Positions 1 to 21,527 of a DNA stretch of 21,527 nucleotides are shown piece after piece (position 1 is the stretch's first letter; each line of letters begins with the position of its first letter). Made by a program: the position numbers and the translations under genes. The notes under the pieces were generated by a model. That model was not told where the DNA came from. It saw only the letters and a list, made by a program, of their open reading frames with translations, and did no database searches. This DNA is from a virus, in IMG/VR virus record IMGVR_UViG_3300009502_002133, positions 1 to 21,527 of that record, one strand, 5' to 3'.

Positions 1-179
1 AAGCTCGTAGAGCATCTTATCAGACTCACTAACGATGCTCATTCTATACCAATTGTTTTAACGCTAAAAGGTGGGTGGTTTTTCGGCTGGCATGGTGGGT
101 GGGTTTTCGCTTGACATTCACACCGCCTTATGCGATTGTTGGTGGTGTCCCGGCGAAAATTATAAAATTTAGAAAATAA
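1..179 (+). pseudogene. Remnant of hexapeptide-repeat acyltransferase, C-terminal end
   Basis: The last codons (123-179) read PPYAIVGGVPAKIIKFRK and then stop. This is the near-invariant C-terminal signature of left-handed beta-helix O-acetyltransferases that modify surface sugars. The frame upstream of it is closed by a TAA at 30-32. Family-like residues (TNDAHSIPI, then a KGGWFFGWHGGWVF stretch resembling KGxVxIGxxVWIG) appear instead in frame 1, which ends at a TGA at 112-114. The last beta-helix coils normally found between the VWIG motif and PPYAIV are missing. The reading is therefore a coding region broken by at least one frameshift and an internal deletion. Its position just before a glycosyltransferase fits a polysaccharide cluster. 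Sequencing error in the GGTGGG-rich tract could explain the frameshift but hardly the missing coils. The 5' part lies outside the window. Confidence 0.6.
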
Positions 180-205
180 CTTATACTTTTAATGAGTTGA
201 ACCCT

Positions 206-1357
206 ATGAATAATAACGAATACAAAATTGGTTTAGTGGCATTTTCCGACAACCCGGCCGGTACGATTCCATTGTCGAATCTGATAAACATTATCACTAA
301 CCTTTCCACAAACTCACATTGTATTATTGTTGAACCAAAGACCGCACAAAATAATATTGTCCGGCGGAACTTTAAAATTGATGTAACTAAAGTGAATCAT
401 GTTCAAGGACACTTCCCATTCAATAGAGTATTTAGTTATATTATTTCTCAAATTAAAATATCTTTTCATATATTCAGACTAAAGGCTCGTGTAGATACTT
501 GGTTCTTTTTTTTGGGGGATGGTTTACTCATCCCAATAATGATTGGCAAGCTATTAAGAAAAAATGTAGTTCTCATATTTGGAGGTTCTGTTGAGAAAGA
601 AGCAGAAATATCCAAACAAACACTTTATAAAATAATTTGCCAAATAAAAAAATTGAACTGTAGTCTTGTAACAAACATTATCGTTTATTCAGACATACTA
701 ATTGATAGCTGGGGACTGAGCCGACATCGAGAAAAAATTGTTGTAGCTCCCCAACACTATATAGATTTCCAAAAATTCAAATCAAACGAAAAATTTAATG
801 AAAAAAATAATCTAGTCGGGTTTATCGGCAGATTTAGCCAAGAAAAAGGCATCCTCAATTTATTAGAAGCTATCCCAGGTATATTAGAGATTAAACCGGA
901 TACAACGTTTTTGATAATAGGGAACGGCCCACTTTCAAAAATCGTGGAGAACTCCCCAGTTCTTCTCGAACATCAAGCACAAATAAAATTGATTGGTTGG
1001 ACAAAACACGACGATCTACCCTATTACATGAATCAACTGAAGGTAATAGTTATACCATCATATACGGAGGGTCTCCCGAATGTCATGCTTGAAGCCATGG
1101 CTTGCGGGGCAGCGGTATTGGCCACCCCTGTGGGTTCAATACCGGACTTTATTAAAGATGGAGTAACTGGTTTTATAACCGAAAACAATTCGAGCGAATG
1201 TATTTCCCGAAATGTCTTGCGAGTTCTGGGCGAACCACGACTCGAAATTATCAGCAATAACGGACATAAATTGGTTGAAAACGATTTCACCTTCGATAAG
1301 GTAGTGAATAGATATACAAAATTACTAGAAAGTTATAGGGTAAGCCTACATCGATAA
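206..1357 (+). CDS. Glycosyltransferase family 4 (GT-B fold)
   Basis: A retaining GT-B glycosyltransferase that would transfer a sugar from a nucleotide-sugar to a lipid-linked or polysaccharide acceptor at the cytoplasmic membrane face. The C-terminal half carries the family hallmarks: VGFIGRFSQEKGI (about residue 205), FLIIGNGPL (about 236), and the EX7E donor-binding motif E-GLPNVML-E followed by AMACGAAVLATPVGSIPDFI (from about residue 288). The N-terminal acceptor domain is divergent and AT-rich. I chose ATG at 206; an in-frame TTG at 197 would add three residues, and neither has a clear Shine-Dalgarno sequence. Length (383 aa) is normal for the family. It begins 26 bases after the acyltransferase remnant and converges on the minus-strand membrane protein. 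The sugar and linkage cannot be told from the sequence. Confidence 0.9.
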   Translation: MNNNEYKIGLVAFSDNPAGTIPLSNLINIITNLSTNSHCIIVEPKTAQNNIVRRNFKIDVTKVNHVQGHFPFNRVFSYIISQIKISFHIFRLKARVDTWFFFLGDGLLIPIMIGKLLRKNVVLIFGGSVEKEAEISKQTLYKIICQIKKLNCSLVTNIIVYSDILIDSWGLSRHREKIVVAPQHYIDFQKFKSNEKFNEKNNLVGFIGRFSQEKGILNLLEAIPGILEIKPDTTFLIIGNGPLSKIVENSPVLLEHQAQIKLIGWTKHDDLPYYMNQLKVIVIPSYTEGLPNVMLEAMACGAAVLATPVGSIPDFIKDGVTGFITENNSSECISRNVLRVLGEPRLEIISNNGHKLVENDFTFDKVVNRYTKLLESYRVSLHR

Positions 1358-1378
1358 AAATAACCAGTTGTGGCGGCT

Positions 1379-3073
1379 TTACCCCCTATGTGTAAATACC
1401 GAGAGTTCATTTGATTCATAGACTTTGTTTTCCCCTTGTGAAGTTGGCATCCCAAGTGTTTCCATCTGCGCTATAACTGACGTTCTGGGCGTTGGATAAT
1501 ACAGCCGCTCAAAAGTAATATCTGTTTTATTAATAATGATCCAATCAAATTTGGACAGGTCAACATTTTCTTGTTCGGAATCTCCTAAATTTTGATACAG
1601 TTCATAGATTGCATAACGAGAATACGAATTACTAATAACCTTCCCTTCAGAAAAATCAAGTGCTTTTGCGAGAGCATAATCAGAAACCGAGGTAGAGTAA
1701 GACAAGCCTTTCGCGTTCGAATCCCATGTCAACGGATCAATTCCAAAAATATTATAAAACATAAATAAAATGACTGACAAAAAGCCTAGTATTGCTAATA
1801 TTCTAGTTTTCGCTTTTAAAATTGCAACACATAACGGCCCGGAACCTAAAAGCCAACCATACATTAGGAACCTATCCGGAAACGCGCCCACCCCATATTT
1901 CAAAACGTACATTTGCATTAAGCCCACTATACCGCAAAGAAAAAGGTAAGTCGTAAATGAATATATTTCTAAATGCTTTTTCCCCCTATTAACCAGTTGA
2001 AACAACAATATAAACCCAAAGACCAAAAGAAAAGCGAAAAAACCATAAAATAAAATAAAACCCCTAATATTTTGTATCGCACCGACGGCAACCCCGGCCT
2101 TGCTTGCATATGTACCCATACCCCATTGGCTCACTGATAATAAATCTCGGGCAAATTTGGATAACGAATTAAGGGGTGTAGTAATCACATATCCCCAATA
2201 AAAAGTAATTCCAACGAAAGCAAAAGCCAAGAACACTGAACCAACCCGAGTTTCAACATTTTCCAATGATACCCGTTTCCTTACTAAACGAAGGTTCACT
2301 AACTTGCTGAAAATGAATTGAATCAATATAAAAACAAACAGCATGAAACTCGTTAGATGATGGCTAACAACTGTGACTATAAAAAAGAAAATTGCGAGAA
2401 CCATTCTAGAAGATGAATATGCCGATAATTTTGATGTGAAATACAGGTAAAGACAGCAAATTGCAAAGAAAAGCGCCAGTGTTTCGCGAATATATAACGA
2501 GCAAAATAAAATATATTGTTGAAGGCAAACAAGAAATAATGTTGCAAATAATGCAATTCTGATTTCTTTGAATATTTTCTTGTTGAAAAGATAATAAATG
2601 GGAATAAAAGCTAAAGAAAAAAATGCAGGCATCCATTTTGCTATTTCCAACATGGGCCAGCCAGTAACCAAAGCGACTTGAGCCCCTAAAACATGAATCA
2701 ATGGAAAATACGATGCGGGATTAATGTACTGTGGCGCTCCACGAATAAACCCAGTCGCTAAAATACCTTCTGCTGATACAAGATCGATATATGCATCCGA
2801 ACCATAAAGACCATAGATAGAAATTTGATAAACCAAATGAAACAAAAGGGCAGCTACTGCGATTTCAATTATAATTAGCATCTCGAACTTAGAAGATAAT
2901 TGAGTTCGAAATGACTGAAATACTACCGTGAAAATCAACAAACCTACTGAAACCCAGAACGCCCACAATGGCAGGCTAAACCCTTGTCTTACTGAAAGCA
3001 AATACCCAAGAAATAGTGTTGCAGATAGAAAATAAATAATCGTGGATAATAATTTTTTATTCCAAGCCGACAT
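1379..3073 (-). CDS. Multi-spanning membrane protein, GT-C glycosyltransferase-like
   Basis: A 564-residue protein with about a dozen hydrophobic segments through residue ~450 and a soluble C-terminal tail of about 110 residues. The first large loop after the second or third membrane segment holds GSDAYIDLVSAEG (around residues 91-103), with acidic residues placed where GT-C enzymes (PMT, ArnT, PglB/AglB type) keep their catalytic or metal-binding Asp. This topology is typical of polyprenyl-phosphate-sugar-dependent transferases or oligosaccharide-unit membrane enzymes. It lies 73 bases downstream of the methyltransferase on the same strand and probably shares its transcript. A polysaccharide polymerase (Wzy-like) is the main alternative. 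Family membership is inferred from topology and loop residues, not from a decisive motif. Confidence 0.7.
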   Translation of the reverse strand: MSAWNKKLLSTIIYFLSATLFLGYLLSVRQGFSLPLWAFWVSVGLLIFTVVFQSFRTQLSSKFEMLIIIEIAVAALLFHLVYQISIYGLYGSDAYIDLVSAEGILATGFIRGAPQYINPASYFPLIHVLGAQVALVTGWPMLEIAKWMPAFFSLAFIPIYYLFNKKIFKEIRIALFATLFLVCLQQYILFCSLYIRETLALFFAICCLYLYFTSKLSAYSSSRMVLAIFFFIVTVVSHHLTSFMLFVFILIQFIFSKLVNLRLVRKRVSLENVETRVGSVFLAFAFVGITFYWGYVITTPLNSLSKFARDLLSVSQWGMGTYASKAGVAVGAIQNIRGFILFYGFFAFLLVFGFILLFQLVNRGKKHLEIYSFTTYLFLCGIVGLMQMYVLKYGVGAFPDRFLMYGWLLGSGPLCVAILKAKTRILAILGFLSVILFMFYNIFGIDPLTWDSNAKGLSYSTSVSDYALAKALDFSEGKVISNSYSRYAIYELYQNLGDSEQENVDLSKFDWIIINKTDITFERLYYPTPRTSVIAQMETLGMPTSQGENKVYESNELSVFTHRG

Positions 3074-3146
3074 AGTGGTCCCTTATAATTTTATAATGAC
3101 AGCCCAAAATAAAGTCGAAACATAATTTGACACGCTAATCAATACA

Positions 3147-3935
3147 TCAATCGCGTATAGCAAGATAACCGCAACCGGGGAGGAGGATGTCCCCAATTAG
3201 CCCAGTAAAATCATTTAACTTAATAATGCGTAAAACAAACTTTTTGAAAACACTATATGATTCTGGTTGAATGAGGTCCCACCTGTCATACACACGATTG
3301 AATCCAATTTCTTTTAGTGCTTTCCTAGTCCCCCAGGGCGAAAACCAGTTAATTGCTGGTGTTTCGGTATAACCAACTAAACTTGGTTTATTTTTAAGCG
3401 TCCAGTTCATAACTCGCACCTTGAGTTTTTGCGGGTACCACGAAAAAAATGGGAAAAACCTTATTTCATCTTGCCGCGGACACATCACTGATGCTGTAGT
3501 AAAATAGAGGGCGCCCTTTGGTTTTAAAACTCGGGATATTTCAGCCAATACTTTGGGGAAATCTCTGACGTGTTCTAAAACCGATTCCCCAATAACCAAA
3601 TCGAATCTATTACTATCGTAGGGAATTTCTTCGGCATACCCACGTATGATATCTAAATGAATTCCCAAATTGTGCGATAATTGCTTTGAAACATTAATTG
3701 CATTCTCATTTGGTTCAATTCCATGACTTTGATAACCTAGTAATTGGCATGCGGCGACTAATTTTCCTTGCGCCGCGCCAATTTCCAGGATCGCAGCATT
3801 CCGATCTAAACTATAAAACTTCTGTATATTTCTAAGGGTTTGTACAACATCTTGTTTTGTTCGTGGAAACGTGGCTAAACAATAATCGAACCCCCGTTTT
3901 TCAGTAGCCGCATGCTTTTTTAAACTCATCACCAT
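3147..3935 (-). CDS. Class I SAM-dependent methyltransferase
   Basis: A 262-residue Rossmann-fold methyltransferase. Motif I is ILEIGAAQGK (residues 49-58), the ribose-binding acidic residue is in HGIEPN (about 71-76), and motif IV with the following helix is FDLVIGESVLEHVRDFP (about 111-127). Next comes RVLKPKGALYFTTASV, as in the Methyltransf_11 family. The C-terminal part is longer than the minimal domain and contains WFSPWGTRKALKEIGF, common in methyltransferases near glycan gene clusters. The N-terminus has two close ATGs (at 3935 and 3929 on the minus strand); I keep the first. Together with the downstream GT-C-like gene it forms a two-gene minus-strand unit, suggesting methylation of a glycan or glycolipid. 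Confidence 0.88.
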   Translation of the reverse strand: MVMSLKKHAATEKRGFDYCLATFPRTKQDVVQTLRNIQKFYSLDRNAAILEIGAAQGKLVAACQLLGYQSHGIEPNENAINVSKQLSHNLGIHLDIIRGYAEEIPYDSNRFDLVIGESVLEHVRDFPKVLAEISRVLKPKGALYFTTASVMCPRQDEIRFFPFFSWYPQKLKVRVMNWTLKNKPSLVGYTETPAINWFSPWGTRKALKEIGFNRVYDRWDLIQPESYSVFKKFVLRIIKLNDFTGLIGDILLPGCGYLAIRD

Positions 3936-4086
3936 AATATCGCGCCTCGCCGATTTTGGGATAGTGCAATTTCTATCATGAAAATTTATTTGCCCCCAAG
4001 ATTCCTAGTTCCTAACAATAATCGTTTCTATTCAATAATTCAAACGAAAACCAATACTTTATGCACTGGATAAAGTAGAACATTTG

Positions 4087-4100
4087 TGCTAATATTAGCA
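4087..4100. promoter_or_regulatory. Perfect 14-bp palindrome, possible operator
   Basis: TGCTAATATTAGCA is its own reverse complement. It stands alone in the non-coding junction about 300 bases ahead of the replisome organizer gene, in the divergent gap between that gene and the methyltransferase. Palindromes of this size often bind dimeric regulators, but no partner regulator or matching promoter is visible, so function is a guess. Confidence 0.3.
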
Positions 4101-4248
4101 TTAGTGAGTCAACAATATACGCAAGAGATCGCCCCCGGATTTCCCGCTTTTTTACATTTTATTTCTGCAATATGCACCTACGTTTTGGGGGTACGAGATT
4201 GCCATCCGCCCAGACGGACCATGCTCCCCGCAATGACAACGGGTGGAT

Positions 4249-4271
4249 GGGGGGGGTTGGGTGGGGAGGGG
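4249..4271 (+). other. G-rich tract able to form a G-quadruplex
   Basis: Within 23 bases there are four G-runs: a run of eight, then GGG, GGGG and GGGG, separated by TT, T and A. This satisfies the usual G3+N1-7 pattern. It lies at the composition break just left of the phage genes. Confidence 0.5.
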
Positions 4272-4403: not shown

Positions 4404-5210
4404 ATGGCACGACCTAAATCGAATGCAGTCATGTACTTTGCCCATGACGTCGATGCTTCAACCAGCAAAACATTAACAGTAATCCAAAATAGTTTTGGAA
4501 ATGCAGGTTACGCGTTCTGGTACAAACTTCTCGAATGGCTCGGAGGTTCTTCAGAAGAGCACTCCTATGACGCAAGAGAGACTGCCGACCTCGAATTCAT
4601 TTCAAACAGGTGCGGAAGCGACCTTGAAACAGGAACGAAAATACTTCAGAAACTAGCGGATGTCGGAGCAATCGACCCTGTGCTCTGGGATCACCGGATA
4701 ATCTGGTGTCAAAATTTCATTGATCGATTAGAGGACCTTTACAAAAGAAGAGCCCGAGAACTGCCGCTTAAGCCGAGTTATTGTAACAATAACTGCCATC
4801 ACAAGGGGGTTATTGTCGAAAATACGGGGGTTTCTGTAACAATAACCCCACAAAGTAAAGTAAATAAAAGTAAAGAAAAGGAAAGTATACTAAATAAAAT
4901 CACACCTATTGTTATGTCTCATAAAGCACTTAATGAAAACTTCGTGTACGAAATGTTCGAGCAACACATCGGCGAACTTACACCAGCGATCCGTGAAGAT
5001 ATAAAAGCCAAGCTCACGAAATTCCCAGCCTCCTGGATTGCCGAAGCATGCAAAGAGGCAGGCAACAAGCCGCAGGACAGGTCTTGGCCTTTTGCATCGG
5101 GGCTGCTGGAAATCTGGAAACGTGAAGGCCGAACAGCGGAAAGCGGGCCGAGCCCGGGCAATGCGGATAAATATCATAAGGGCAAGTTCAGCCACCTGGT
5201 GAAGGGTTAA
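4404..5210 (+). CDS. Phage replisome organizer (Lin1244/Lin1753-type N-domain, DnaD-like C-domain)
   Basis: A 268-residue replication initiation protein that would bind the phage origin and help load the host helicase. Residues about 7-115 (NAVMYFAHDVDAS... FWYKLLEWLGG... ILQKLADVGAIDP... RIIWCQNF) match the winged-helix Lin1244/Lin1753 N-terminal domain as I know it. Residues about 175-245 (LTPAIREDIKAKL, then SWIAEACKEAGN and LLEIWKREG) have the DnaB2/DnaD-tail pattern. The linker (about 125-170) is low-complexity and is encoded by the iterated repeats described separately. ATG 4404 is preceded by AAAGGGG with good spacing. It is the first gene of the rightward phage block and is followed after one base by the next start. 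Domain assignment is by recognition, not search. Confidence 0.8.
   Translation: MARPKSNAVMYFAHDVDASTSKTLTVIQNSFGNAGYAFWYKLLEWLGGSSEEHSYDARETADLEFISNRCGSDLETGTKILQKLADVGAIDPVLWDHRIIWCQNFIDRLEDLYKRRARELPLKPSYCNNNCHHKGVIVENTGVSVTITPQSKVNKSKEKESILNKITPIVMSHKALNENFVYEMFEQHIGELTPAIREDIKAKLTKFPASWIAEACKEAGNKPQDRSWPFASGLLEIWKREGRTAESGPSPGNADKYHKGKFSHLVKG
4777..4905. other. Candidate phage replication origin inside the replisome organizer gene
   Basis: Two inverted repeats with shared sequence sit in the linker coding region. GTTATTGT at 4777-4784 faces ACAATAAC at 4786-4793, and GGGGTTATTGT at 4806-4816 faces ACAATAACCCC at 4839-4849. The 12-mer TGTAACAATAAC is also directly repeated at 4782-4793 and 4835-4846, 53 bases apart, about five helical turns. 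Immediately downstream, 4850-4905 is a nearly G/C-free, A-rich tract with AAAGTAAAGTAAATAAAAG-type direct repeats, suitable as an unwinding element. Origins inside the initiator gene are known for lambda O and similar phages. The function here is inferred from layout. Confidence 0.6.
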
Positions 5211-5211
5211 G

Positions 5212-5394
5212 ATGAAGATACCGGGTACCTGGCTCGCGGGTGAAAGCGGGAAATGCAAAAGAGGGGCTTGCGGCGGCAACCTCTACCTGGATTGGGACTG
5301 GCGAAAAAGAATCACAAAAAAATGCCTGTTGTGCTCGCGGGAGGAATCACTCACAAATGACGAGCAAAAGGATTTGATATTTGGCTCACGCTGA
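5212..5394 (+). CDS. Small zinc-ribbon-like phage protein
   Basis: A 60-residue protein starting one base after the replisome organizer stop. It has four cysteines at 15, 20, 38 and 41 (C-x4-C-x17-C-x2-C, with GACGGNLY after the first pair and CLLCSREE at the second), the arrangement of a zinc ribbon. Its 3' end overlaps the following gene by 14 bases. The tight coupling to both neighbours supports a real gene. Function is unknown; small zinc ribbons in phage early regions often bind nucleic acid. Confidence 0.65.
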   Translation: MKIPGTWLAGESGKCKRGACGGNLYLDWDWRKRITKKCLLCSREESLTNDEQKDLIFGSR

Positions 5395-5881
5395 TAACGA
5401 CGAAAGGACTGACCCGGAGGCACTGGCAGGTTATACGCCCCAGCAGGACCTCCGCTTCGACAGGAGCGATGTAATCTGGCTGCTCGCGATATTGCCGCAG
5501 TTGAGGCTCGGCAGATACCCGGCGGGGGACGCGGAAGCGAACAGGGAAGAGGGGAAAACCGGCGTGTCGGAAAGGGCACCTTTCGAAAACGCGGGACTCC
5601 TGGCCGCAGAGGTGGAAGAACGACTCGACGCCTGCGGAAGGGATGGGGTGCTGCTGGAACTGGTTTATACACTGGGTATCACGACGTCAAAGGCCGCGAC
5701 GCTGGCAGGCGAGAGACCAGAGAAGATGGCACGGAGGCTCGAAACGGCACTGGGGTACATCGCCTCGGGGTGGTGCAGGAGGTGGATATCATGCACAAGG
5801 TGCCTTACCAGGCCGAATTGCATGAAGGCTAAGAAGGGGAGGGCCGCGAAGAACTATAAGGACTGGAGGGGGCATAGATGA
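5381..5881 (+). CDS. Candidate HTH regulator of late phage genes
   Basis: A 166-residue protein from a TTG start at 5381 with AAGGA about 8 bases upstream. Its start overlaps the preceding zinc-ribbon gene. Residues about 88-130 (VLLELVYTLGITTSKAATLAGERPEKMARRLETALGYI) look like a sigma-region-4-type helix-turn-helix, as in phage late activators of the RinA/ArpU or DUF1492 kind. The C-terminus is basic and has cysteines at 132, 138, 141 and 147 (CRRWISCTRCLTRPNC), possibly a zinc knuckle. It is the last gene before a long non-coding leader with terminators and the terminase genes, exactly where late regulators usually sit. Family assignment is tentative and the start codon is uncertain. Confidence 0.55.
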   Translation: MAHADNDERTDPEALAGYTPQQDLRFDRSDVIWLLAILPQLRLGRYPAGDAEANREEGKTGVSERAPFENAGLLAAEVEERLDACGRDGVLLELVYTLGITTSKAATLAGERPEKMARRLETALGYIASGWCRRWISCTRCLTRPNCMKAKKGRAAKNYKDWRGHR

Positions 5882-5891
5882 GGGCGAGCTC

Positions 5892-5919
5892 TCAGCCTTC
5901 AGCTTTCAGCGATCAGCTG
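5892..5919 (+). repeat. Heptamer repeat TCAGCNN, four units
   Basis: Four exact-length units (TCAGCCT, TCAGCTT, TCAGCGA, TCAGCTG) follow one another without a gap. The conserved TCAGC core with two variable bases recurs in a second array at 6180-6214. Confidence 0.85.
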
Positions 5920-5920
5920 T

Positions 5921-6003
5921 TGATTTGTCGGCGCGATCCGCCCAGGTGGATTAAGGAAATGTACTTCGGATGTGTTGAGGGCACGGCGCGCCGTGCCCCT
6001 ACA
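5921..6003 (+). repeat. Dispersed repeat, long form, with perfect 20-bp palindrome
   Basis: This copy shares TTTGTCGGCGCGATCC, CCCAGG.GGATTA.GAAATG and the palindromic core with the tandem copies at 21225-21300 and 21434-21509. Its core, GGGCACGGCGCGCCGTGCCC at 5979-5998, is a perfect palindrome; other copies have CA in place of CG at the centre. It is a REP-like element rather than a coding sequence. Confidence 0.85.
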
Positions 6004-6048
6004 GATGCCGGGGACCGGCCTGGGATGACAACCCTGAACCCCGCAACT

Positions 6049-6112
6049 CGTGCCTGAATGCGGAGATGAAGAAAACAACCCACAGGCACGGAAACGCTTT
6101 GACTTACCCGTG
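6049..6112 (+). ncRNA. Possible structured leader RNA with competing stems
   Basis: CGTGCCTG (6049-6056) can pair perfectly with CAGGCACG (6083-6090). The same CACGG (6087-6091) can instead pair with CCGTG (6108-6112), so the two stems exclude each other. A terminator-like hairpin follows 25 bases downstream. This is the logic of an attenuator or a small regulatory RNA. I do not recognise a known riboswitch family and there is no covariation evidence, so the call is speculative. Confidence 0.25.
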
Positions 6113-6137
6113 AATTGGTGGTAGAGTTAAATAGTAA

Positions 6138-6176
6138 GGGCTGAGATTCCGCAAGGACTCCAGCCCGTTTTGTTTT
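6138..6176 (+). terminator. Terminator-like hairpin with GCAA tetraloop
   Basis: GGGCT-GAG pairs with CTC-(C)-AGCCC with one bulged C, and the apex TCC-GCAA-GGA forms a GNRA-capped stem. The hairpin is followed by GTTTTGTTTT. It could end transcripts from the early genes or a leader RNA. Confidence 0.65.
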
Positions 6177-6179
6177 AAC

Positions 6180-6214
6180 CAGCTAACAGCGTTCAGCAAT
6201 CAGCGGTCAGCAAG
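6180..6214 (+). repeat. Heptamer repeat CAGCNNN, five units
   Basis: CAGCTAA, CAGCGTT, CAGCAAT, CAGCGGT and CAGCAAG follow in perfect 7-base register. The last unit runs into the 5' arm of the next terminator. It is the same repeat type as at 5892-5919, so the two arrays flank the leader segment. Confidence 0.85.
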
Positions 6215-6245
6215 CCTCTTCTTTCGAGAAGGGGCTTTTTGTTTT
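6213..6245 (+). terminator. Rho-independent terminator ahead of small terminase
   Basis: AGCCTCTTCT and AGAAGGGGCT form a 10-bp stem (one T-G pair) around a TTCG tetraloop (6223-6226), followed directly by TTTTTGTTTT. It separates the early genes from the terminase genes; the small terminase start lies about 20 bases downstream, so late transcription must read through or start very close by. Confidence 0.85.
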
Positions 6246-6264
6246 ACCAAAAGGGGGATTAAAC

Positions 6265-6645
6265 TTGGCCATAGAAAAACTAAAGAAAAGCGAGGATGGC
6301 ATCATCCGGTTTAACCAGGGGCAATTGATCGATCTTGAAAAACTATTGGGGATGCAAGCCACCGACCAGGAAATCGCAGCCTGTTTCGGGATACACCGCT
6401 CCACATTGATAGATATCAAAAAACGAGACCCCGTTTTTGCTGAATGTTATACCCGAGGGAAAGACACGGGAAGGGCTTCGCTTCGCCACTTAATGTGGCA
6501 ATCGGCTTTGGGAAGCGAAACCCGCGAACCGAACATCGCCATGCAGATATTCCTTGCAAAAAACATCTTGGGAATGTCCGACAAACAGGAATTAACCGGC
6601 AAAGATGGCAAAGACTTCACAATCGGCATAGCGAGAGATGGATAA
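6265..6645 (+). CDS. terS: Phage terminase small subunit
   Basis: A 126-residue DNA-recognition subunit of the packaging motor. The N-terminal helix-turn-helix is ATDQEIAACFGIHRSTLIDIKKRDPVF (about residues 32-58). The central part AECYTRGKDTGRASLRHLMWQSAL and the C-terminal IAMQIFLAKNILGMSDKQELTG are typical of small terminases of this group, whose end contacts the large subunit. The start is TTG 6265 with AAGGGGG seven bases upstream; no upstream ATG is in frame. Its stop overlaps the large terminase start by eight bases, supporting translational coupling. Confidence 0.85.
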   Translation: MAIEKLKKSEDGIIRFNQGQLIDLEKLLGMQATDQEIAACFGIHRSTLIDIKKRDPVFAECYTRGKDTGRASLRHLMWQSALGSETREPNIAMQIFLAKNILGMSDKQELTGKDGKDFTIGIARDG

Positions 6646-7924
6646 ATACTATGCCCACGTAAGGAATACGGACACCCACCCATCCCAGCACGCTTTTGTA
6701 TATTCAGATAAAAAACGCATCGTCATTAAAGCCGGGCGACGCGGCGGTAAAACGGTCGGAATCGCGATAAGAGCTGTAACACGATTCAGCGTTTTTGGAC
6801 GGAGGCAATTATACGCCGCCCCGACCTCGGAACAAACCGACGCATTCTGGTTCGAAGTATTAAAAGCGCTTCAAGCCCCTATCCTTGCTGGAAGACTGAA
6901 AGTCGATAAAACAGAAAGAACAATCGAGAATCCAGGTACCAAGCAGCGCATCAAAGCCAAAACCGCCTGGAACGCCGACACACTGCGCGGCGACTATGCC
7001 GACGACCTCTACCTCGATGAATACCAGCTCATGAACGAAGATGCCTGGGAAGTAGTAGGGCAGCCAATGCTTCTAGATAACAACGGCGACGCGGTTTTCA
7101 TCTACACGCCGCCGTCGCTCATCTCGGCGGGAGTATCCAAAGCGCGGGACCCGCTCCATGCATCAAAACTATTCAAAAAGGCACAAGCGGATGAATCCGG
7201 ACTATGGACTACGTTCCATTTTACATCGTGGGACAACCCGTTCATCTCGAAAGAAGGACTCAAGATAGTGGCGGCCGATATGAGCCAGGCGGCCTACCGG
7301 CAGGAGATCATGGCCGAGGATGATGAAATCTCGCCGAAGCAGTTGATATACTCTGCATTCAACGAAGGGCTCTGCAAGGTGCCGCGAATCGCTATCCCGC
7401 CGCGCTGGCAGGTTTATGCCGGCCACGACTTCGGCTCGGCAAATCCGGCGGCTCTGTTCTTCGCCAAAGACCCGGACACGGGTTACTTCTATCTGTTCAA
7501 CGAATACCTGCCCGGGGGCGGGCGCTCAACATACCAGCACACGCTCGAATTCAAGCGGATTACCGAGGGGCTTAGAGTTGAGACACGGGCGGGAGGAAGC
7601 CACCAGGAAGACGAAATACGGCAGGGCTACGCTTCGCATGGCTGGCCCATCAAGGAGCCCAAGATTTCGAACGTAGGGGCGGGCATAGATAAAGTGCGGG
7701 GGATGTTCGAACTCGGGAAGATAAGAATCTTCGACGATATGGCGCTGACTCTCTCCGAACTATCGGTCTACAAGTGGAAAGTGGACTCAAGCGGTATCAT
7801 AACCAACGAGATAGATGACAAGGCAAAGTTTCACCTGATGGATTGCATGAGGTATATACTGAGCGACTTCGCGCCGGACACGGCTGAAAGACAAGAAGGG
7901 CCGGAGTTGAGGCGAGGGTGGTAG
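6638..7924 (+). CDS. terL: Phage terminase large subunit
   Basis: The ATP-driven DNA-packaging motor with a C-terminal nuclease that cuts the concatemer. Walker A is GRRGGKT (residues 33-39), Walker B with the catalytic Glu is LYLDE (124-128), and the coupling-motif region is FIYTPPS (154-160). The RNase H-like nuclease starts with YAGHDFGSANP (Asp264) and carries a later acidic residue in HLMDCMRY (Asp402). Length (428 aa) is that of compact terminases. It overlaps the small terminase by eight bases and is followed by a repeat-filled gap before the portal. ATPase and nuclease motifs look intact, so the gene is not visibly decayed. Confidence 0.95.
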   Translation: MDKYYAHVRNTDTHPSQHAFVYSDKKRIVIKAGRRGGKTVGIAIRAVTRFSVFGRRQLYAAPTSEQTDAFWFEVLKALQAPILAGRLKVDKTERTIENPGTKQRIKAKTAWNADTLRGDYADDLYLDEYQLMNEDAWEVVGQPMLLDNNGDAVFIYTPPSLISAGVSKARDPLHASKLFKKAQADESGLWTTFHFTSWDNPFISKEGLKIVAADMSQAAYRQEIMAEDDEISPKQLIYSAFNEGLCKVPRIAIPPRWQVYAGHDFGSANPAALFFAKDPDTGYFYLFNEYLPGGGRSTYQHTLEFKRITEGLRVETRAGGSHQEDEIRQGYASHGWPIKEPKISNVGAGIDKVRGMFELGKIRIFDDMALTLSELSVYKWKVDSSGIITNEIDDKAKFHLMDCMRYILSDFAPDTAERQEGPELRRGW

Positions 7925-7935
7925 ACGATTGCAGG

Positions 7936-8018
7936 ATATGGTGAGGGCACGGCACGCCGTGCCCCTACGGGATGCCGAATGTGGCGCTCCGGCATCACAA
8001 TCGAGGCCCGGGATGACA
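7936..8018 (+). repeat. Dispersed palindromic repeat between terminase and portal
   Basis: The core GGGCACGGCACGCCGTGCCC is at 7945-7964, followed by CTAC and a tail (GGATGCCG..., then CTCCGGCATCACA and CCCGGGATGACACGCG) that resembles the tail of the copy downstream of the portal gene. The element nearly fills the 107-base gap between the two genes. Confidence 0.8.
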
Positions 8019-8031
8019 CGCGAGAAAATGA

Positions 8032-9699
8032 ATGGACTATCTGAAATTAATCACAAACAAGCAGAGCGAACTGTCCCAGATGTTCGACAGGATGGACCGC
8101 GATGCCGCGATGTTTCATTCCAAGCCATATTGCATGCTGGGCGTCGATGGCAAAAAGATCGACAAAGCCTATCACATCACCCTGCTCGACGCCGCGCAGT
8201 TTTTGGACAAGGCTGTGGCGAGGATAACGGCGGTATCACGGCAGGTACTGGTGGAATCCACCAGGCTGCCCGGCGAAAAGACTTCCGCTATCGAAAACTT
8301 CATTAACGACTTGCAGTTCGAAATAGACGCCCGACTCGCAGCTAAAGGCGAAGCCGATACTTTCACCCAGCATACGGAATTAGTGTGCGCACGGGGGCCG
8401 ATAGTGGAACAAAACCTCCTGCGGGTGGAAAACGGCCAGCTTATCCCCGACTCACGCCCGATAGATTCCCGCTGGTTCACCTATGAGTTGACCGAGGGGA
8501 GGATGATATGGGGATGCGTGGAAACACTGCGAACAGCAGCCGACATCGAGGCTGAATTCGGATATCGCATCACAGGTACGACAGGCAGCGTACTGGATTT
8601 CTGGAACGACAACCATGAAACCATCTTCGTAGACGGGCACCAGGTAGATGAAAGACCAAACGGCTACGGATATCCGCCTTTCGTGGTAGCTTTTCCCGCC
8701 ACATCTTCGGCATTGAAAGACCCCGATTACTACCTGCGGCTCGGCGACTCCATCATGCACTCGCTCCGCACCGCCGACGGGCATTACCTTTTCGATGAAA
8801 AGAACTTCATCGCTTCGAACCTAAAAACGCTTTCATCCAAATCCATCGCCCCCGACCTGCAATTCCCCTCCCCGGCAGACGGCGACTACCAGGCATTGCC
8901 CCAGGAATACCCTGCTGGAACCGGAGTGATGCTTCAGACGAAAGACCCTATCCAACTTATACCACGGCCCGACGTGGCCAATTCCACATTGCGTTATGCA
9001 GAAATAATTCAGGAGCAGATAGACCGGGGGTCGTTTTCGGCCATGGATTACGGCACGGTAAGCCTGCCCCTTTCAGCCGTGGCGATCGCCCGACTGATGA
9101 CCGGTAGGGAAGAACTTATGCTGCCGCGTCTCAACACTCTTGCTGCATTATGTCAATCATCCAGCAAGATGAAAATAAGGCAATTTCAGAGGTTCGGTGA
9201 AAAGCTGGACCTCGGGGAAGAAGGGCACCGGCGCACGTATTCACCGGTAGACCTCGACGGTGAATATGTCATCAAATACCGGTTCTTCACTTCATCGCAG
9301 GAGCAGATGGCAGGGGCTGCCGCGATATGCAACGCCCTCGGCGACCACGTTTCTGAAGAGTACAAGCAGGAACAAGTGCTGAGGCTTCAGGACCCGGCGG
9401 GCGAACGGGCGCAGATAGCTATCGAACAGGCGGCGAAAGCGGACCCGATCATAGCACTCGAAAACCAGATGCGGGGATTCATCAAGGCGCAGGAAGCGTC
9501 AGACGACAAAGAGACTAAGGACTGGAACGACCTGCTGGCGCGGACAATCCTAGAACGCATCATCAGCATAATGAAACAGAGGAAGGCCTCGGAGAGCCAG
9601 CCGATGGCGGTAAACCTGGAACAGAACGCGCTTGATAAACCGTCGGCTATCCAGGCAGTGCCGGTGTTCGGCGGGGGAAGGGGGGTGGGGCAAAGTTGA
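8032..9699 (+). CDS. Phage portal protein
   Basis: A 555-residue protein at the portal position (terminase, portal, scaffold, capsid). It would form the dodecameric DNA gate at one capsid vertex. Recognisable stretches include SRWFTYELTEGRMIWGCVETLRTAADIEAEFG (wing and clip region), a stem/crown-like helical segment near SLPLSAVAIARLMTGREELMLPRL, and a hydrophilic helical C-terminus. The size is nearer to head-tail connectors of short-tailed phages than to HK97-type portals. ATG 8032 gives MDYLKLI; it has only a weak GAGAAA ribosome site, and the repeat lies immediately upstream. The final residues are glycine-rich, and the TGA stop is the start of the next repeat copy, so the C-terminus may have been rewritten. 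Identification rests mainly on context and general pattern. Confidence 0.8.
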   Translation: MDYLKLITNKQSELSQMFDRMDRDAAMFHSKPYCMLGVDGKKIDKAYHITLLDAAQFLDKAVARITAVSRQVLVESTRLPGEKTSAIENFINDLQFEIDARLAAKGEADTFTQHTELVCARGPIVEQNLLRVENGQLIPDSRPIDSRWFTYELTEGRMIWGCVETLRTAADIEAEFGYRITGTTGSVLDFWNDNHETIFVDGHQVDERPNGYGYPPFVVAFPATSSALKDPDYYLRLGDSIMHSLRTADGHYLFDEKNFIASNLKTLSSKSIAPDLQFPSPADGDYQALPQEYPAGTGVMLQTKDPIQLIPRPDVANSTLRYAEIIQEQIDRGSFSAMDYGTVSLPLSAVAIARLMTGREELMLPRLNTLAALCQSSSKMKIRQFQRFGEKLDLGEEGHRRTYSPVDLDGEYVIKYRFFTSSQEQMAGAAAICNALGDHVSEEYKQEQVLRLQDPAGERAQIAIEQAAKADPIIALENQMRGFIKAQEASDDKETKDWNDLLARTILERIISIMKQRKASESQPMAVNLEQNALDKPSAIQAVPVFGGGRGVGQS

Positions 9700-9834
9700 G
9701 GGCACGGCACGCCGTGCCCCTACAAAACGAGATTCTGGATCCCTCGAGAACACGCTCGAGGACAAGAACCTCGGGGAACCCTCCGAGGGCCGGATGTGCG
9801 CTCCGGCATGACACGCGGAGGATAGGAGTACGCA
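9695..9834 (+). repeat. Dispersed palindromic repeat with hairpin-rich tail, downstream of portal
   Basis: The core GGGCACGGCACGCCGTGCCC (9700-9719) is followed by CTACAAAACGAGATTCTGGATCC and a series of short palindromes (CCCTCGAG...CTCGAGG, then CCTCGGGG and CCTCCGAGG) ending in GGCATGACACGCG. The same tail follows the copy at 14193. The portal stop codon (9697-9699) lies inside the conserved TTGAGGGCACGG start of the repeat. Confidence 0.85.
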
Positions 9835-9909
9835 ATGAAAGAAGGGTATCTGACAGTCGAAGAGGCGGTGAGGGAGATAAGGGGGGCGATGGAGGGGGGA
9901 AATAACTGA
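9835..9909 (+). CDS. Possible 24-residue peptide gene
   Basis: ATG 9835 follows GGAGGATAGGAG and opens MKEGYLTVEEAVREIRGAMEGG, ending at TGA 9907-9909. The good ribosome site and helical, charged sequence suggest either a real small phage gene or the surviving 5' end of a longer one. A second 24-codon frame (9909-9983) starts in a TGATG overlap with its stop and runs into the AT-richer segment upstream of the cargo gene. Neither is recognised. Confidence 0.3.
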   Translation: MKEGYLTVEEAVREIRGAMEGGNN

Positions 9910-10033
9910 TGGCGCCCAAATTGGAGTCGATCCCGAACCGTCCAAGCCATCATAAATGTTTGATTGTAACCCCAAATACTTGACATATGAGAGTATACTG
10001 TCACAAGGCGCGTTTCGAAGGAGGGGTAATCTC

Positions 10034-11326
10034 ATGGCATTCTGTTGGAAATGTGGCACCAAAATAAATGAAGGAAAGCAGTTTTGCGGCAACTGCGGAT
10101 CGGATATTCATAAAGCAACCTCGCTTCCCACCACCCCCCAATCACCCCCTCCAGACGTTCCTCCTGATCCAATTCAATATCGAAATGCAAACGATACCAA
10201 AAAGAGCACGGGTTTAAAGATTCCTGTTCTTGTGCTTTCAATCGTACTCGTGCTGGTACTTATAGCCAGCTCGATAGGATACGTTACATTCAATCAAAAA
10301 GTAACTGATTTAACTTCCCAGAAAACGCAATTAACCAGCGATTTAAACGCAGCGCATAATTCCATTACAACATTAAACAACCAGTTAAACACCGCGAACG
10401 GAACGATATCGAAACTAAATGACGATTTGAGCATCGCAAACACGAAGGCCTCCGCCTTGACAGCGAGCCTCAGCGCCGCGAATTCTTCAATAACTAAACT
10501 GAATTCGGATATTGTGACCGCCAATAATTCGATAACTTCCTTGAATTCACAAAATGCCCTGCTCACTGCAAACCTATCCACAGCTAACAGTACAATTACT
10601 GGTTTGAATTCAAATATCGCCACTTTGAATACTTCTATCGCCTCTATGAATTCCAACTACCAGGCAATAGTATCAGCGATAAACGTGCGCTTTGCATTCA
10701 CCCAAGCGATAGCGGAATCCTTCGTCACCCCCGGAGATTCGAGCGTAATATCCAGGGTACATTCATTAGTCACTGCCTTCACTACTTGGAACAAAGCCTG
10801 GCAAGACTTTTATACGATGTATAACTGGGTATACCAAAACATTTATTATTCCTATGACTCTCCTGAACCCGTATTGCCGAGCAATCTGAATACCAGTGCA
10901 ATCACCTGGCGGTCCGATTACTGGAGATACCCAACCGAGACCCTTGGAAAAATGACTGGAGACTGCGAAGACCAGGCATTGTTACTGGTAAGCATGATTA
11001 GAGCATACGAAGGGACTACGTACAATACGTGGGTGGTAGAAGTGACTTTTAACGATGGTTCAGCGCATATGGCAGTTATGATGGATATCGCCGGTGGCGG
11101 ACTGGTCATCCTAGACCCCGCTGGAGGCTTTTATACTCACTCCACCGCAGGTGCGATATATACCGGTAAGTCTGCAGCAGCGGCTCTCAATGATTGGTCA
11201 TCATATTGGGCTGCCCCCCCTAATAGCCGCACAGGATTGTTAGTCAGTGACGTCTTCAACGAAGGCTTTTACAAATCATTTACCAGCAATTCAGATTTCA
11301 CCAATTGGATAACTTCTCTGGGTTAA
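10034..11326 (+). CDS. Membrane-anchored zinc-ribbon, coiled-coil, transglutaminase-like protein (cargo gene)
   Basis: A 430-residue protein with four parts: a zinc ribbon (Cys4, Cys7, Cys18, Cys21; CWKCG...CGNCG), a Pro-rich linker, one membrane segment (about residues 63-83), a low-complexity N/S/T/L-rich coiled coil (about 92-209) with repeated LN..I...N spacing, and a C-terminal transglutaminase-like domain. The likely catalytic triad is Cys311 (TGDCEDQALLLVSMIRA), His345 (SAHMAVMM) and Asp361 (VILDPAGG). ATG 10034 has a strong AAGGAGGGG site (10018-10026). Topology suggests the ribbon stays in the cytoplasm and the enzyme domain faces outside. It interrupts the conserved portal-scaffold order, is less GC-rich than its neighbours and ends at its own terminator: a cargo (moron) gene that may act in the lysogen or at the cell surface. 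Substrate unknown. Confidence 0.8.
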   Translation: MAFCWKCGTKINEGKQFCGNCGSDIHKATSLPTTPQSPPPDVPPDPIQYRNANDTKKSTGLKIPVLVLSIVLVLVLIASSIGYVTFNQKVTDLTSQKTQLTSDLNAAHNSITTLNNQLNTANGTISKLNDDLSIANTKASALTASLSAANSSITKLNSDIVTANNSITSLNSQNALLTANLSTANSTITGLNSNIATLNTSIASMNSNYQAIVSAINVRFAFTQAIAESFVTPGDSSVISRVHSLVTAFTTWNKAWQDFYTMYNWVYQNIYYSYDSPEPVLPSNLNTSAITWRSDYWRYPTETLGKMTGDCEDQALLLVSMIRAYEGTTYNTWVVEVTFNDGSAHMAVMMDIAGGGLVILDPAGGFYTHSTAGAIYTGKSAAAALNDWSSYWAAPPNSRTGLLVSDVFNEGFYKSFTSNSDFTNWITSLG

Positions 11327-11360
11327 CAAATAGACCACAGGAGTTTTTATAAAGTATCTT

Positions 11361-11380
11361 TCGGGTTTTCTTAACCCGGA
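11361..11380 (+). other. Stem-loop downstream of the cargo gene
   Basis: CGGGTT and AACCCG form a 6-bp stem, extendable by two weak pairs, around TTCTT. It is followed by ATAAAAAATAT, not by a T-run, so it is a poor terminator by itself. Confidence 0.4.
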
Positions 11381-11422
11381 TAAAAAATATTTGTACTAAA
11401 CAGCCAAACATACAGCGTAATC

Positions 11423-11456
11423 AAAAGCCCCGCGGAATAACAACGCGGGGCTTTTT
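11423..11456 (+). terminator. Strong Rho-independent terminator between cargo and scaffold genes
   Basis: GCCCCGCG (11427-11434) and CGCGGGGC (11444-11451) form a perfect 8-bp stem around a 9-base loop. It is extended by AAAA/TTTT and followed by TTTTTCT. It lies only about 8 bases ahead of the scaffold ribosome site, so capsid genes can be expressed from upstream only by readthrough or antitermination. Confidence 0.92.
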
Positions 11457-11481: not shown

Positions 11482-12126
11482 ATGGACGGAACTGGAACTA
11501 AGCAGGATACCGGGGCGACGCAAAACTTGCCAACGGCTTCTGCGACAGAACAGGGAACTTCAACCCCCGAAACATTTAGCGAAGAACAGGTCATTGCAAG
11601 GGAACTCAAGGCTGTGAGCGATTATGCCTCGCGTACAGGCAGAGTTGAGGAAACCCTGATCAAACGGGAGCAAATCGTAAAAGAAGCCGAGGCACGAAAA
11701 GCCAAAGAGGAACAGGAACGTGAACTAGCTGAACTCGAAAAAGTGAAAGACAAACCCGAAGAGCTATCTATCGTGGAAAGGCGGCAGAAATTGGCCGCCG
11801 ATATCCGCGTCTATAACGTGGAAGTTGAAAAATTCCAGGCCGAAAAATCATTGCATACCGCCGAACTGGCAGAGGCGAAAACCAGCCGATTCGATATGGC
11901 AGTCGCAGGCATCGCCGAAAAGAACAACGTGAGCACAGCCATCCTTAAAGAATGGTCGGCAAAACGGGGCATAACGGACCTTAGCCTTATCGAAGACTAC
12001 GCTGCGGTGATGCCGAAGAAAACAGCCGTCATCGTGCCGGATTCGGGCAAGAACGCAGGAGGCGGTGAAGACATCTCCCGCCTTTCACCAAGGGAGCTAA
12101 TCTCCCGTGGACTAAATAAAAAGTAA
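11482..12126 (+). CDS. Phage scaffolding protein (probable)
   Basis: A 214-residue, highly charged, mostly helical protein directly upstream of the major capsid gene, the standard place of the internal scaffold. It has a Thr/Gln/Gly-rich flexible N-terminus, a long coiled coil (from EEQVIARELKAV to about EKSLHTAELAEAK), then a more globular part and a basic C-terminal tail (SRLSPRELISRGLNKK) of the kind that binds coat protein. I prefer ATG 11482; AAGGAG lies 12 bases upstream, and an in-frame TTG at 11461 would add seven residues. No protease partner is visible, so the scaffold would leave the procapsid intact or be cut by a protease not seen here. Confidence 0.75.
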   Translation: MDGTGTKQDTGATQNLPTASATEQGTSTPETFSEEQVIARELKAVSDYASRTGRVEETLIKREQIVKEAEARKAKEEQERELAELEKVKDKPEELSIVERRQKLAADIRVYNVEVEKFQAEKSLHTAELAEAKTSRFDMAVAGIAEKNNVSTAILKEWSAKRGITDLSLIEDYAAVMPKKTAVIVPDSGKNAGGGEDISRLSPRELISRGLNKK

Positions 12127-12145
12127 ACTGGAGGGTTTCTAATAA

Positions 12146-13168
12146 ATGGCCGCAACACTCGCACAATATAAATACCTTGGACCTGACGCCGAGATCAGGC
12201 GGGGCATCGGGCTAACCATCGTGAAACAATCACCGTGGCTGTCCGAACTGCCTTTCGTAGAGATCAATAACAACATCTCCCGCTACAAGATGGAACTTGC
12301 CGCCGCTGCCGCCGATACCTACGAAGTCGGCGACACCTGGCTGGAAGGCACACCCACGTGGGAATACCGCGACGCGGCGCTATCCATCCTTGGCGGCGAC
12401 GCCGATGACGACAAGTTCGGACGCCTCGCCACCGGTGGGGAAGACACGATGGCTTCGATGATTGAACTCAAATCGAAGGCTGTCGCCAACTGGTTCGATG
12501 AACTGGCGATCCTGGGGCAGACCACCGCCGTAGCCAAATGGAGCGCTTCCAAAAACTTCAAAGGACTGCTGCGACTAATCTGCGAATGCGAAAGCGCCGC
12601 GTCAACCGACCTCGACGGGGCAATCTTCAGCGCGTTCAGCGCAGGAAACAACAGCCAGGTGGTACAGGCGGCTTCCGGCGCATCAGGGGTACTGACGCTC
12701 GACATGATCGACGTACTGGTGGACTGCGTGAAACCCAAACCCACGCACCTCGTCATGAACCGCCAGCTGCGCCGCAAACTCGGCGGGCTCGCCCGGGCGG
12801 CAGGCAACAACCTGACGATAAGAACCGGGGCACTCGGTGAAATCATCACTTCCTACGGTGAACAGATAATCCTGGTGGACGACTATACCCCGATCAACTT
12901 CCCCGACCCGACCACCATCGTCTCCGCTCCCGCCGCGTATACACCCACAACGAGCGTAGCCGCAGGGAACGACACTTCACCCGTATTCGCATTGCGCATG
13001 GGAGAGGACGGGCTCTGCGGGATACACGGAGCCGGGATGATACACGTGGAAAGGTTCAACCAGCTCGAAACGAAGGACGCCGAAAGGGTCCGCATCAAAT
13101 TTTACGCAGGCATGCGGCTCACCAATAAACTGGCCGCAGCCGTGCTGCTGTCTGCCACCGCAAGCTAG
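12146..13168 (+). CDS. Phage major capsid protein (HK97 fold)
   Basis: A 340-residue coat protein. Residues about 44-97 (ISRYKMELAAAAADTYEVGDTWLEGTPTWEYRDAALSILGGDADDDKF) have the look of the E-loop with its following P-domain strands, and the centre has spine-helix-like MIELKSKAVANWFDELAIL. The end (DGLCGIHGAGMIHVERFNQLETKDAERVRIKFYAGMRLTNKLAAAVL) is the usual C-terminal strand pattern of HK97-fold coats that report receptor-like 'G..V...RFAGL' endings. GGAGGG precedes the ATG at good spacing. It follows the scaffold by 19 bases and precedes a decoration-like gene. No N-terminal delta domain is obvious, consistent with a separate scaffold. Confidence 0.88.
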   Translation: MAATLAQYKYLGPDAEIRRGIGLTIVKQSPWLSELPFVEINNNISRYKMELAAAAADTYEVGDTWLEGTPTWEYRDAALSILGGDADDDKFGRLATGGEDTMASMIELKSKAVANWFDELAILGQTTAVAKWSASKNFKGLLRLICECESAASTDLDGAIFSAFSAGNNSQVVQAASGASGVLTLDMIDVLVDCVKPKPTHLVMNRQLRRKLGGLARAAGNNLTIRTGALGEIITSYGEQIILVDDYTPINFPDPTTIVSAPAAYTPTTSVAAGNDTSPVFALRMGEDGLCGIHGAGMIHVERFNQLETKDAERVRIKFYAGMRLTNKLAAAVLLSATAS

Positions 13169-14181: not shown

Positions 14182-14189
14182 TAGAGTGT

Positions 14190-14335
14190 AGAAGGCACGG
14201 CACGCCGTGCCCCTACAAAACGATATTCTGGATCCCGGCTGCCCTCGAGCCTCGAGGACGAGAACACCCGAGCCGCGGGTGCGAGAACCTCGGGGGACAT
14301 CCCGAGGCCCCTCCGGGATGACAACGAAGCGAACG
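14190..14335 (+). repeat. Dispersed palindromic repeat with nested hairpins
   Basis: The core AGGCACGGCACGCCGTGCCC (14193-14212) is followed by CTACAAAACGATATTCTGGATCC and nested palindromes: CCTCGAG/CCTCGAGG, ACCCGAGC/GCGGGTG, and CCTCGGG/CCCGAGG, ending GGGATGACAACG. The tail matches the copy at 9695-9834 in order but with different stem sequences. It fills the 204-base gap before the next gene. Confidence 0.85.
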
Positions 14336-21154: not shown

Positions 21155-21362
21155 CCTCTCTTTTCGTTCTCTCCCACGGAGTGAAGAGAATAGCCCACAT
21201 GCCTCTCCGGGATGACATTGATGGTCTGCCGGCGCGATCCCCCCAGGCGGATTATGAAATGGACCCCGGATGTTTTGAGGGCACGGCACGCCGTGCCCCT
21301 ACAAAACGAGATTCCGGATGCCGGGTACCAGCCCGGTTTGTCATTCATATCGGGTCGCATGG
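21155..21362 (+). repeat. Tandem repeat unit 1 (about 208 bp)
   Basis: From CCCCTCTCTTTTCG through the CTCCCACGGAGTG motif (21171), GGCGCGATCC (21231) and the palindromic core GGGCACGGCACGCCGTGCCC (21279-21298) to the tail CCGGATGCCGGGTACCAGCCCGGTTTGTCATTC. The same landmarks recur 208-209 bases downstream in unit 2. There is no gene in 21101-21527 that I can support. Confidence 0.85.
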
Positions 21363-21527
21363 AAGACGCCCTCTCTTTCTCCCACGGAGTGGAGAAAAAA
21401 CCCCCAATCCCCTTTCGGGCTGACTTTGATGGTTTGTCGGCGCGATCCCCCCAGGCGGATTAAGGAAATGGGCCCCTGATGTGGTGAGGGCACGGCACGC
21501 CGTGCCCCTACACAACGAGATTCTGGA
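21363..21527 (+). repeat. Tandem repeat unit 2, cut by the window end
   Basis: The CTCCCACGGA motif (21379), GGCGCGATCC (21439) and the palindromic core (21488-21507) are at offsets of 208, 208 and 209 from unit 1. The sequence has diverged at many positions, so the duplication is not recent. It continues past the window end into ACGAGATTCTGGA. Confidence 0.85.

Follow-up and report, generated by a model that had tools for sequence, protein, structure and literature searches.

The gene we designate P0001, which lies between the presumed portal and scaffold genes of a 21.5-kb viral contig (the window, i.e., the whole stretch of DNA analyzed), occupies, by sequence comparison, a variable slot in which two different low-GC membrane-protein genes are known. 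The available evidence supports its classification as an accessory (moron-like) phage gene. A transglutaminase-like fold is well supported by modelling for the core of its product, for which the closest solved relative, as judged from a family profile and a fold match, is LapG. As to what this protein does, we hold with moderate confidence that it is an accessory membrane-tethered LapG/BTLCP-like enzyme whose targets are proteins of the host surface or associated with its cell wall. The features on which these views are based are collected in Table 1.

Table 1. Positions in the window of P0001, its parts and its surroundings.
Feature	Position	Strand	Basis
34-nt palindromic repeat, six copies	5969-6002, 7935-7968, 9690-9723, 14183-14216, 21269-21302, 21478-21511
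Presumed small terminase	6265	+
Large terminase (TerL)	6638-7924	+	phrog_2
Presumed portal, 555 aa	8032-9699	+	Position, synteny
Small ORF of the phage backbone, 24 aa; homologue of the first part of a 45-aa L003 ORF	9835-9909	+	Alignment with L003
Variable slot, contents unrelated to the L003/L026 slot	9888-11422	.	Flanks conserved left and right, interior dissimilar
Shine-Dalgarno-like AAGGAGGGG, 7 nt before ATG	10018-10026	+	Sequence
Gene P0001, membrane-anchored transglutaminase-like protein, 430 aa	10034-11326	+	ORF, Pfam, sequence anatomy
Zinc ribbon (CxxC...CxxC), residues 3-24, predicted cytoplasmic	10040-10105	+	Pfam Zn_Ribbon_1 above cut-off
Membrane helix, residues about 61-84, lysines N-terminal to helix	10214-10285	+	Hydropathy
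Coiled coil, 18 unbroken heptads, residues 90-215, Asn/Ser/Thr-rich	10301-10678	+	Heptad test against shuffles
Transglutaminase-like core, residues about 255-370	10796-11143	+	DUF553, alignment, LapG profile match, model and fold searches
Codon of Cys311	10964-10966	+
Codon of His345	11066-11068	+
Codon of Asp361	11114-11116	+
Hairpin terminator, 12-bp stem, U-run, symmetric (readable on both strands), right slot edge	11423-11456	.	Folding and relatives
Presumed scaffold	11482-12126	+	Position, synteny
Major capsid protein	12146-13168	+	phrog_212

A variable slot in the head-gene region

The edges of the slot are set by comparison with the closest relative, L003 (IMGVR 3300050033_000888), whose matched head genes are about 79–83% identical to those of the window, with the portal at 91% and the capsid protein at 99%. 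On the left, similarity stops at about 9887, inside the small backbone ORF; on the right it resumes with a hairpin (11423–11455; −22.5 kcal/mol, z −4.8) whose sequence L003 shares without change for about 31 nt. Because this terminator is conserved in relatives without P0001, it is part of the phage backbone. The original prediction, which counted a strong terminator among the cargo gene's own signals, was thus right about the hairpin and its strength but not about its ownership.

Between the same flanks L003 lacks P0001 and carries instead a minus-strand gene for a 140-aa membrane protein, and no similarity was found between the slot contents of the two genomes. The replacement (L003 positions 3833–4255) has four hydrophobic helices, its own ribosome site and 41.6% G+C; a search for a family match to it found none. 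A second relative, L026 (3300037076_000325), has its slot arranged as in L003, to which it is 99.98% identical, and the two may come from the same population and hence not be independent. The P0001 gene is found again in 3300022555_002185, a contig that matches the window without a difference as far as position 11840 and may likewise represent the window's own population; this near-identical contig excepted, the gene is absent from the stretches examined of the relatives found via the capsid gene. From inside the scaffold gene onward (11841–12560), 3300022555_002185 and the window show 71 differences in 720 bp after 11.8 kb of identity, a pattern suggestive of either recombination or chimeric assembly.

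That the slot is variable, with a replacement in a close relative, is the strongest reason to regard P0001 as accessory. The moron-like status originally proposed is borne out by its absence from L003 and L026, and homologues do not always sit at this place. Composition also fits the earlier description of a gene with lower G+C than its neighbours: P0001 has 44.9% G+C (GC3 47%) vs. 54.9% in the upstream gene, 51% in the scaffold gene and 51–59% across the adjacent head genes, and its codon usage is atypical. The portal–scaffold order that P0001 was said to break is not, however, as tight as had been supposed, since an ORF of 1353–2147 aa lies directly upstream of the scaffold gene in other relatives (L004, L005, L049, L051, L053, L054, and L055). 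In L004 this giant ORF (4612–8673) carries the polyvalent-protein domain LPD38, and in L005 (2966–8875) it follows a portal homologue (26% identity).

The strong ribosome site attributed to P0001 is present ahead of its ATG start, whereas a longer alternative frame from 9956 (456 aa) has no Shine-Dalgarno-like site. A scan for sigma-70-type promoters found none upstream of the gene, and the gene may therefore be expressed late, together with those for the terminase and portal. A palindromic operator candidate in the same region (TGACA...TGTCA, near 9981–10002) was dropped, its five-base arms being too short relative to chance. A tRNA search found none, and no integrase was found among the part of the window's ORFs scanned; the expression by a lysogen that was originally proposed finds no support in these scans.

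The portal and scaffold identities are presumed, as Pfam and PHROG searches gave no significant match for either protein, nor did the PDB give any for the portal. Clues to the host are split: TerL points to a methanogen virus, while a DnaD/Lin1244-type replication gene and the hairpin terminator point to a bacterial host. Residues 39–236 of TerL are 59% identical to the terminase of the Methanosarcina virus MetMV and the rest is without similarity; the MetMV frame has about 390 residues ahead of its TerL-like part. The 34-nt repeat (GAGGGCACGGCACGCCGTGCCCCTAC core) is mostly intergenic, with one copy just upstream of the slot, and in L003 different repeats of this type are likewise scattered. 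The left 4 kb of the window (1–3935) has 36–40% G+C and distinct codon usage, and encodes a glycosyltransferase, a multi-helix membrane protein and a methyltransferase; it may derive from the host chromosome or form a second block of cargo, devoted to surface polysaccharide.

Protein anatomy and the transglutaminase-like core

The zinc ribbon, membrane segment and coiled coil described in the original prediction are all present. Zn_Ribbon_1 scores 31.2 bits against a Pfam cut-off of 25, and hydropathy defines one clear helix (Kyte–Doolittle 2.94 at residue 63; 1.42 in the next-best region). In the coiled coil, 89% of the a/d positions are hydrophobic, as compared with a maximum of 65% in 5000 shuffles; its 126 residues would form a stalk of ~18–19 nm (calculated at 0.15 nm per residue). 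The lysines ahead of the helix ('NDTKKSTGLK') and the charge-poor, Asn/Ser/Thr-rich coiled coil after it suggest an N-inside, C-outside topology, i.e., a predicted outward-facing membrane anchor. Whole-protein matches in PHROGs, NCBIfam and PADLOC (SMC, LmuB, JetC, tape measure, scaffold) were discarded, as almost all fell on the coiled coil.

The core itself matches DUF553 (PF04473, "transglutaminase-like") at 28.1–29.4 bits, above the curated Pfam cut-off of 20.5, and Pfam C93 (PF06035) at 16.0–18.7 bits, below the cut-off of 27 that its relative L011 passes (35.6). Searched alone, P0001 reaches LapG sequences only at E 0.06–0.19. We built a family by iteration from the core, adding L008, L011, L022 and L023 and then 19 more proteins from viral contigs, for an alignment of 24 divergent viral proteins (P0001 and 23 others). 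A Trp, a Gly-Asp-Cys, an Asp two residues after the Cys, and a His are invariant in this alignment; Cys311 and His345 are thus kept in 24/24 proteins, and the third catalytic position is mostly Asp or Glu. Against the PDB, the family profile recovers the two LapG sequences at E 8e-19 and 2e-17.

Structure prediction agrees with the profiles. A first model of P0001 from three sequences was set aside (pLDDT 46). The AlphaFold core model is confident over model residues 41–150 (block mean pLDDT about 71–94) and poorly predicted over model residues 152–205. With it, Foldseek places LapG entries as the top PDB matches (E 8e-5), and in VIA-align LapG scores Z 11.2 (124 residues, 3.6 Å), ahead of other proteins with this fold: Streptococcus pyogenes TglA (Z 9.3) and the pseudomurein endoisopeptidases PeiW (Z 7.9; Foldseek E 0.005) and PeiP (Z 7.3). 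The catalytic Cys, His, and Asp fall exactly where they had first been placed, and the C-terminal part, for which a transglutaminase-like fold had been proposed, has such a fold in the model. Acidic residues (D310 and E312) flank Cys311 within a retained GDCED motif; the calcium-dependent cleavage of a surface protein expected of a BTLCP/LapG member would be a candidate activity. We infer that the core is catalytically active.

Probable action at the host surface and its alternatives

In the reading that we favor, P0001 would reside in the cell membrane, probably as an oligomer, with its zinc ribbon on the cytoplasmic side and a LapG/BTLCP-like Cys-His-Asp enzyme held outside the membrane on a coiled-coil stalk of about 18 nm. 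For as long as the cell contains the phage genome, this enzyme would most likely cleave or modify host proteins of the surface or cell wall, for example adhesins, S-layer proteins or components of capsule export; adhesion, capsule formation or receptor display would change, to the benefit of the phage or of the infected host. Action on host surface proteins is proposed because of the analogy with two known enzymes: LapG, which is described as cleaving surface adhesins (PMC4694147, PMC3032545), and HvyA, a Caulobacter transglutaminase homologue that prevents capsulation and sets sensitivity to phage phiCr30 through its Cys and His (PMC4241560). On this analogy, surface remodelling of the infected cell is the probable role of P0001. 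A bolder reading makes P0001 a one-protein inside-out switch, in which something sensed or bound by the zinc ribbon in the cytoplasm would govern, by way of the membrane helix and coiled coil, a LapG-like protease that strips surface proteins outside and so excludes other phages. We think this very doubtful; were it true, one chain would unite the functions that LapD and LapG divide between them. Our literature search found no work combining transglutaminase, prophage, and superinfection exclusion.

The gene's surroundings allow a different role, in which P0001 is packaged in the virion and ejected, replacing the giant polyvalent-type protein and aiding genome entry through the envelope via its enzyme domain. 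Its place on the late-gene strand, the giant ORFs upstream of the scaffold gene in other relatives (with LPD38 in one and a portal homologue ahead of another), and the several viral transglutaminase-like proteins that adjoin tail genes are all consistent with such a role. We nevertheless consider it unlikely, as the closest relative, so similar in portal and capsid, has no such protein and carries its slot gene on the opposite strand, as P0001 has low G+C and atypical codon usage, and as a zinc ribbon with a single outward anchor is unusual for an ejected protein.

There are two further alternatives. PeiW and PeiP are among the fold matches, psiM2 Pei is present in the viral list, and the ATPase part of TerL resembles that of a Methanosarcina virus, all of which would suit a cell-wall or S-layer hydrolase for lysis or egress comparable to these endoisopeptidases. 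Yet the LapG match is clearly stronger (Z 11.2 vs. 7.9), a cytoplasmic zinc ribbon with a membrane tether is not endolysin-like, and the DnaD/Lin1244-type replication gene suggests that the host is a bacterium, so that we regard a hydrolase as quite improbable. In the other alternative, the transglutaminase-like domain would bind without catalysis, and P0001 would serve passively as an adhesin or a coat on the surface: although the long, regular coiled coil resembles surface fibers, the Cys-His-Asp and the flanking GDCED are kept and the Cys and His are invariant across the 24 divergent proteins, which makes a passive role, to our minds, highly improbable. An enzyme acting on the host surface is the reading we retain; its own anchor and stalk would confine its activity to the outside of the host membrane, and the idea of host-surface remodelling can thus be tested directly.

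Relation to other transglutaminase-like proteins

Transglutaminase-like proteases are common as auxiliary genes in environmental viruses. In river single-virus genomes, those of the BTLCP type are the most frequent auxiliary gene, and the data suggest that the gene moves between virus clusters (PMC11283719). The original prediction knew of no described phage system with the domain order of P0001. Virus-borne transglutaminase-like proteases were already known; the order itself—zinc ribbon, membrane helix, coiled coil, transglutaminase-like core—was found in 0 of the 23 other viral proteins examined and in no paper recovered by our literature search. Those of L008, L011, L022, and L029–L047 are 135–338 aa long and soluble, secreted or lipoprotein-like. 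Because those of L008, L011, L022, and L042 sit among tail genes, some viral transglutaminase-like proteins may be virion parts. The small proteins of L008 (9872–10279), L022 (3433–3882) and L011 (9722–10393) lie amid tail genes, and two of the three have signal or lipoprotein-like starts.

Beyond these proteins, a tblastn search of phage and plasmid records with P0001 gave no match, and a Geoglobus pleomorphic virus matched weakly. A scan of cellular genomes, narrow in extent, returned one relative, on a contig that also has tail genes and was binned as Aenigmarchaeum. In a search of 60 genomes from that phylum, most matches were to the coiled coil. The architecture of P0001 may have originated in cells.

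Among described systems, DUF553 is a domain family of unknown function, which does not include the regions that P0001 has ahead of its core. The river-virus BTLCP genes (PMC11283719) and the small viral proteins share with P0001 the transglutaminase-like core and motif. PeiW and PeiP of methanogen viruses share its transglutaminase-like fold and act on the cell envelope, but are endolysins and match the P0001 model less well than LapG does. HvyA of Caulobacter crescentus is, as proposed for P0001, a BTLCP-type enzyme at the envelope, and its catalytic residues control capsulation and phage sensitivity; it differs in being chromosomal, with a signal sequence and a place in a capsule gene cluster, and no zinc ribbon or stalk has been described for it. 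LapG (Pseudomonas fluorescens/Legionella; BTLCP, Peptidase C93; PDB 4U65, 4FGO) shares with P0001 the transglutaminase-like fold, the Cys-His-Asp, the W..P.E...GDCED and AHM motifs with acidic residues beside the Cys, and (as predicted for P0001) a location on the extracytoplasmic side. P0001 falls under the C93 cut-off; and where LapG is soluble, periplasmic and recruited by its receptor LapD, the P0001 chain itself includes a zinc ribbon, a membrane helix and a coiled coil.
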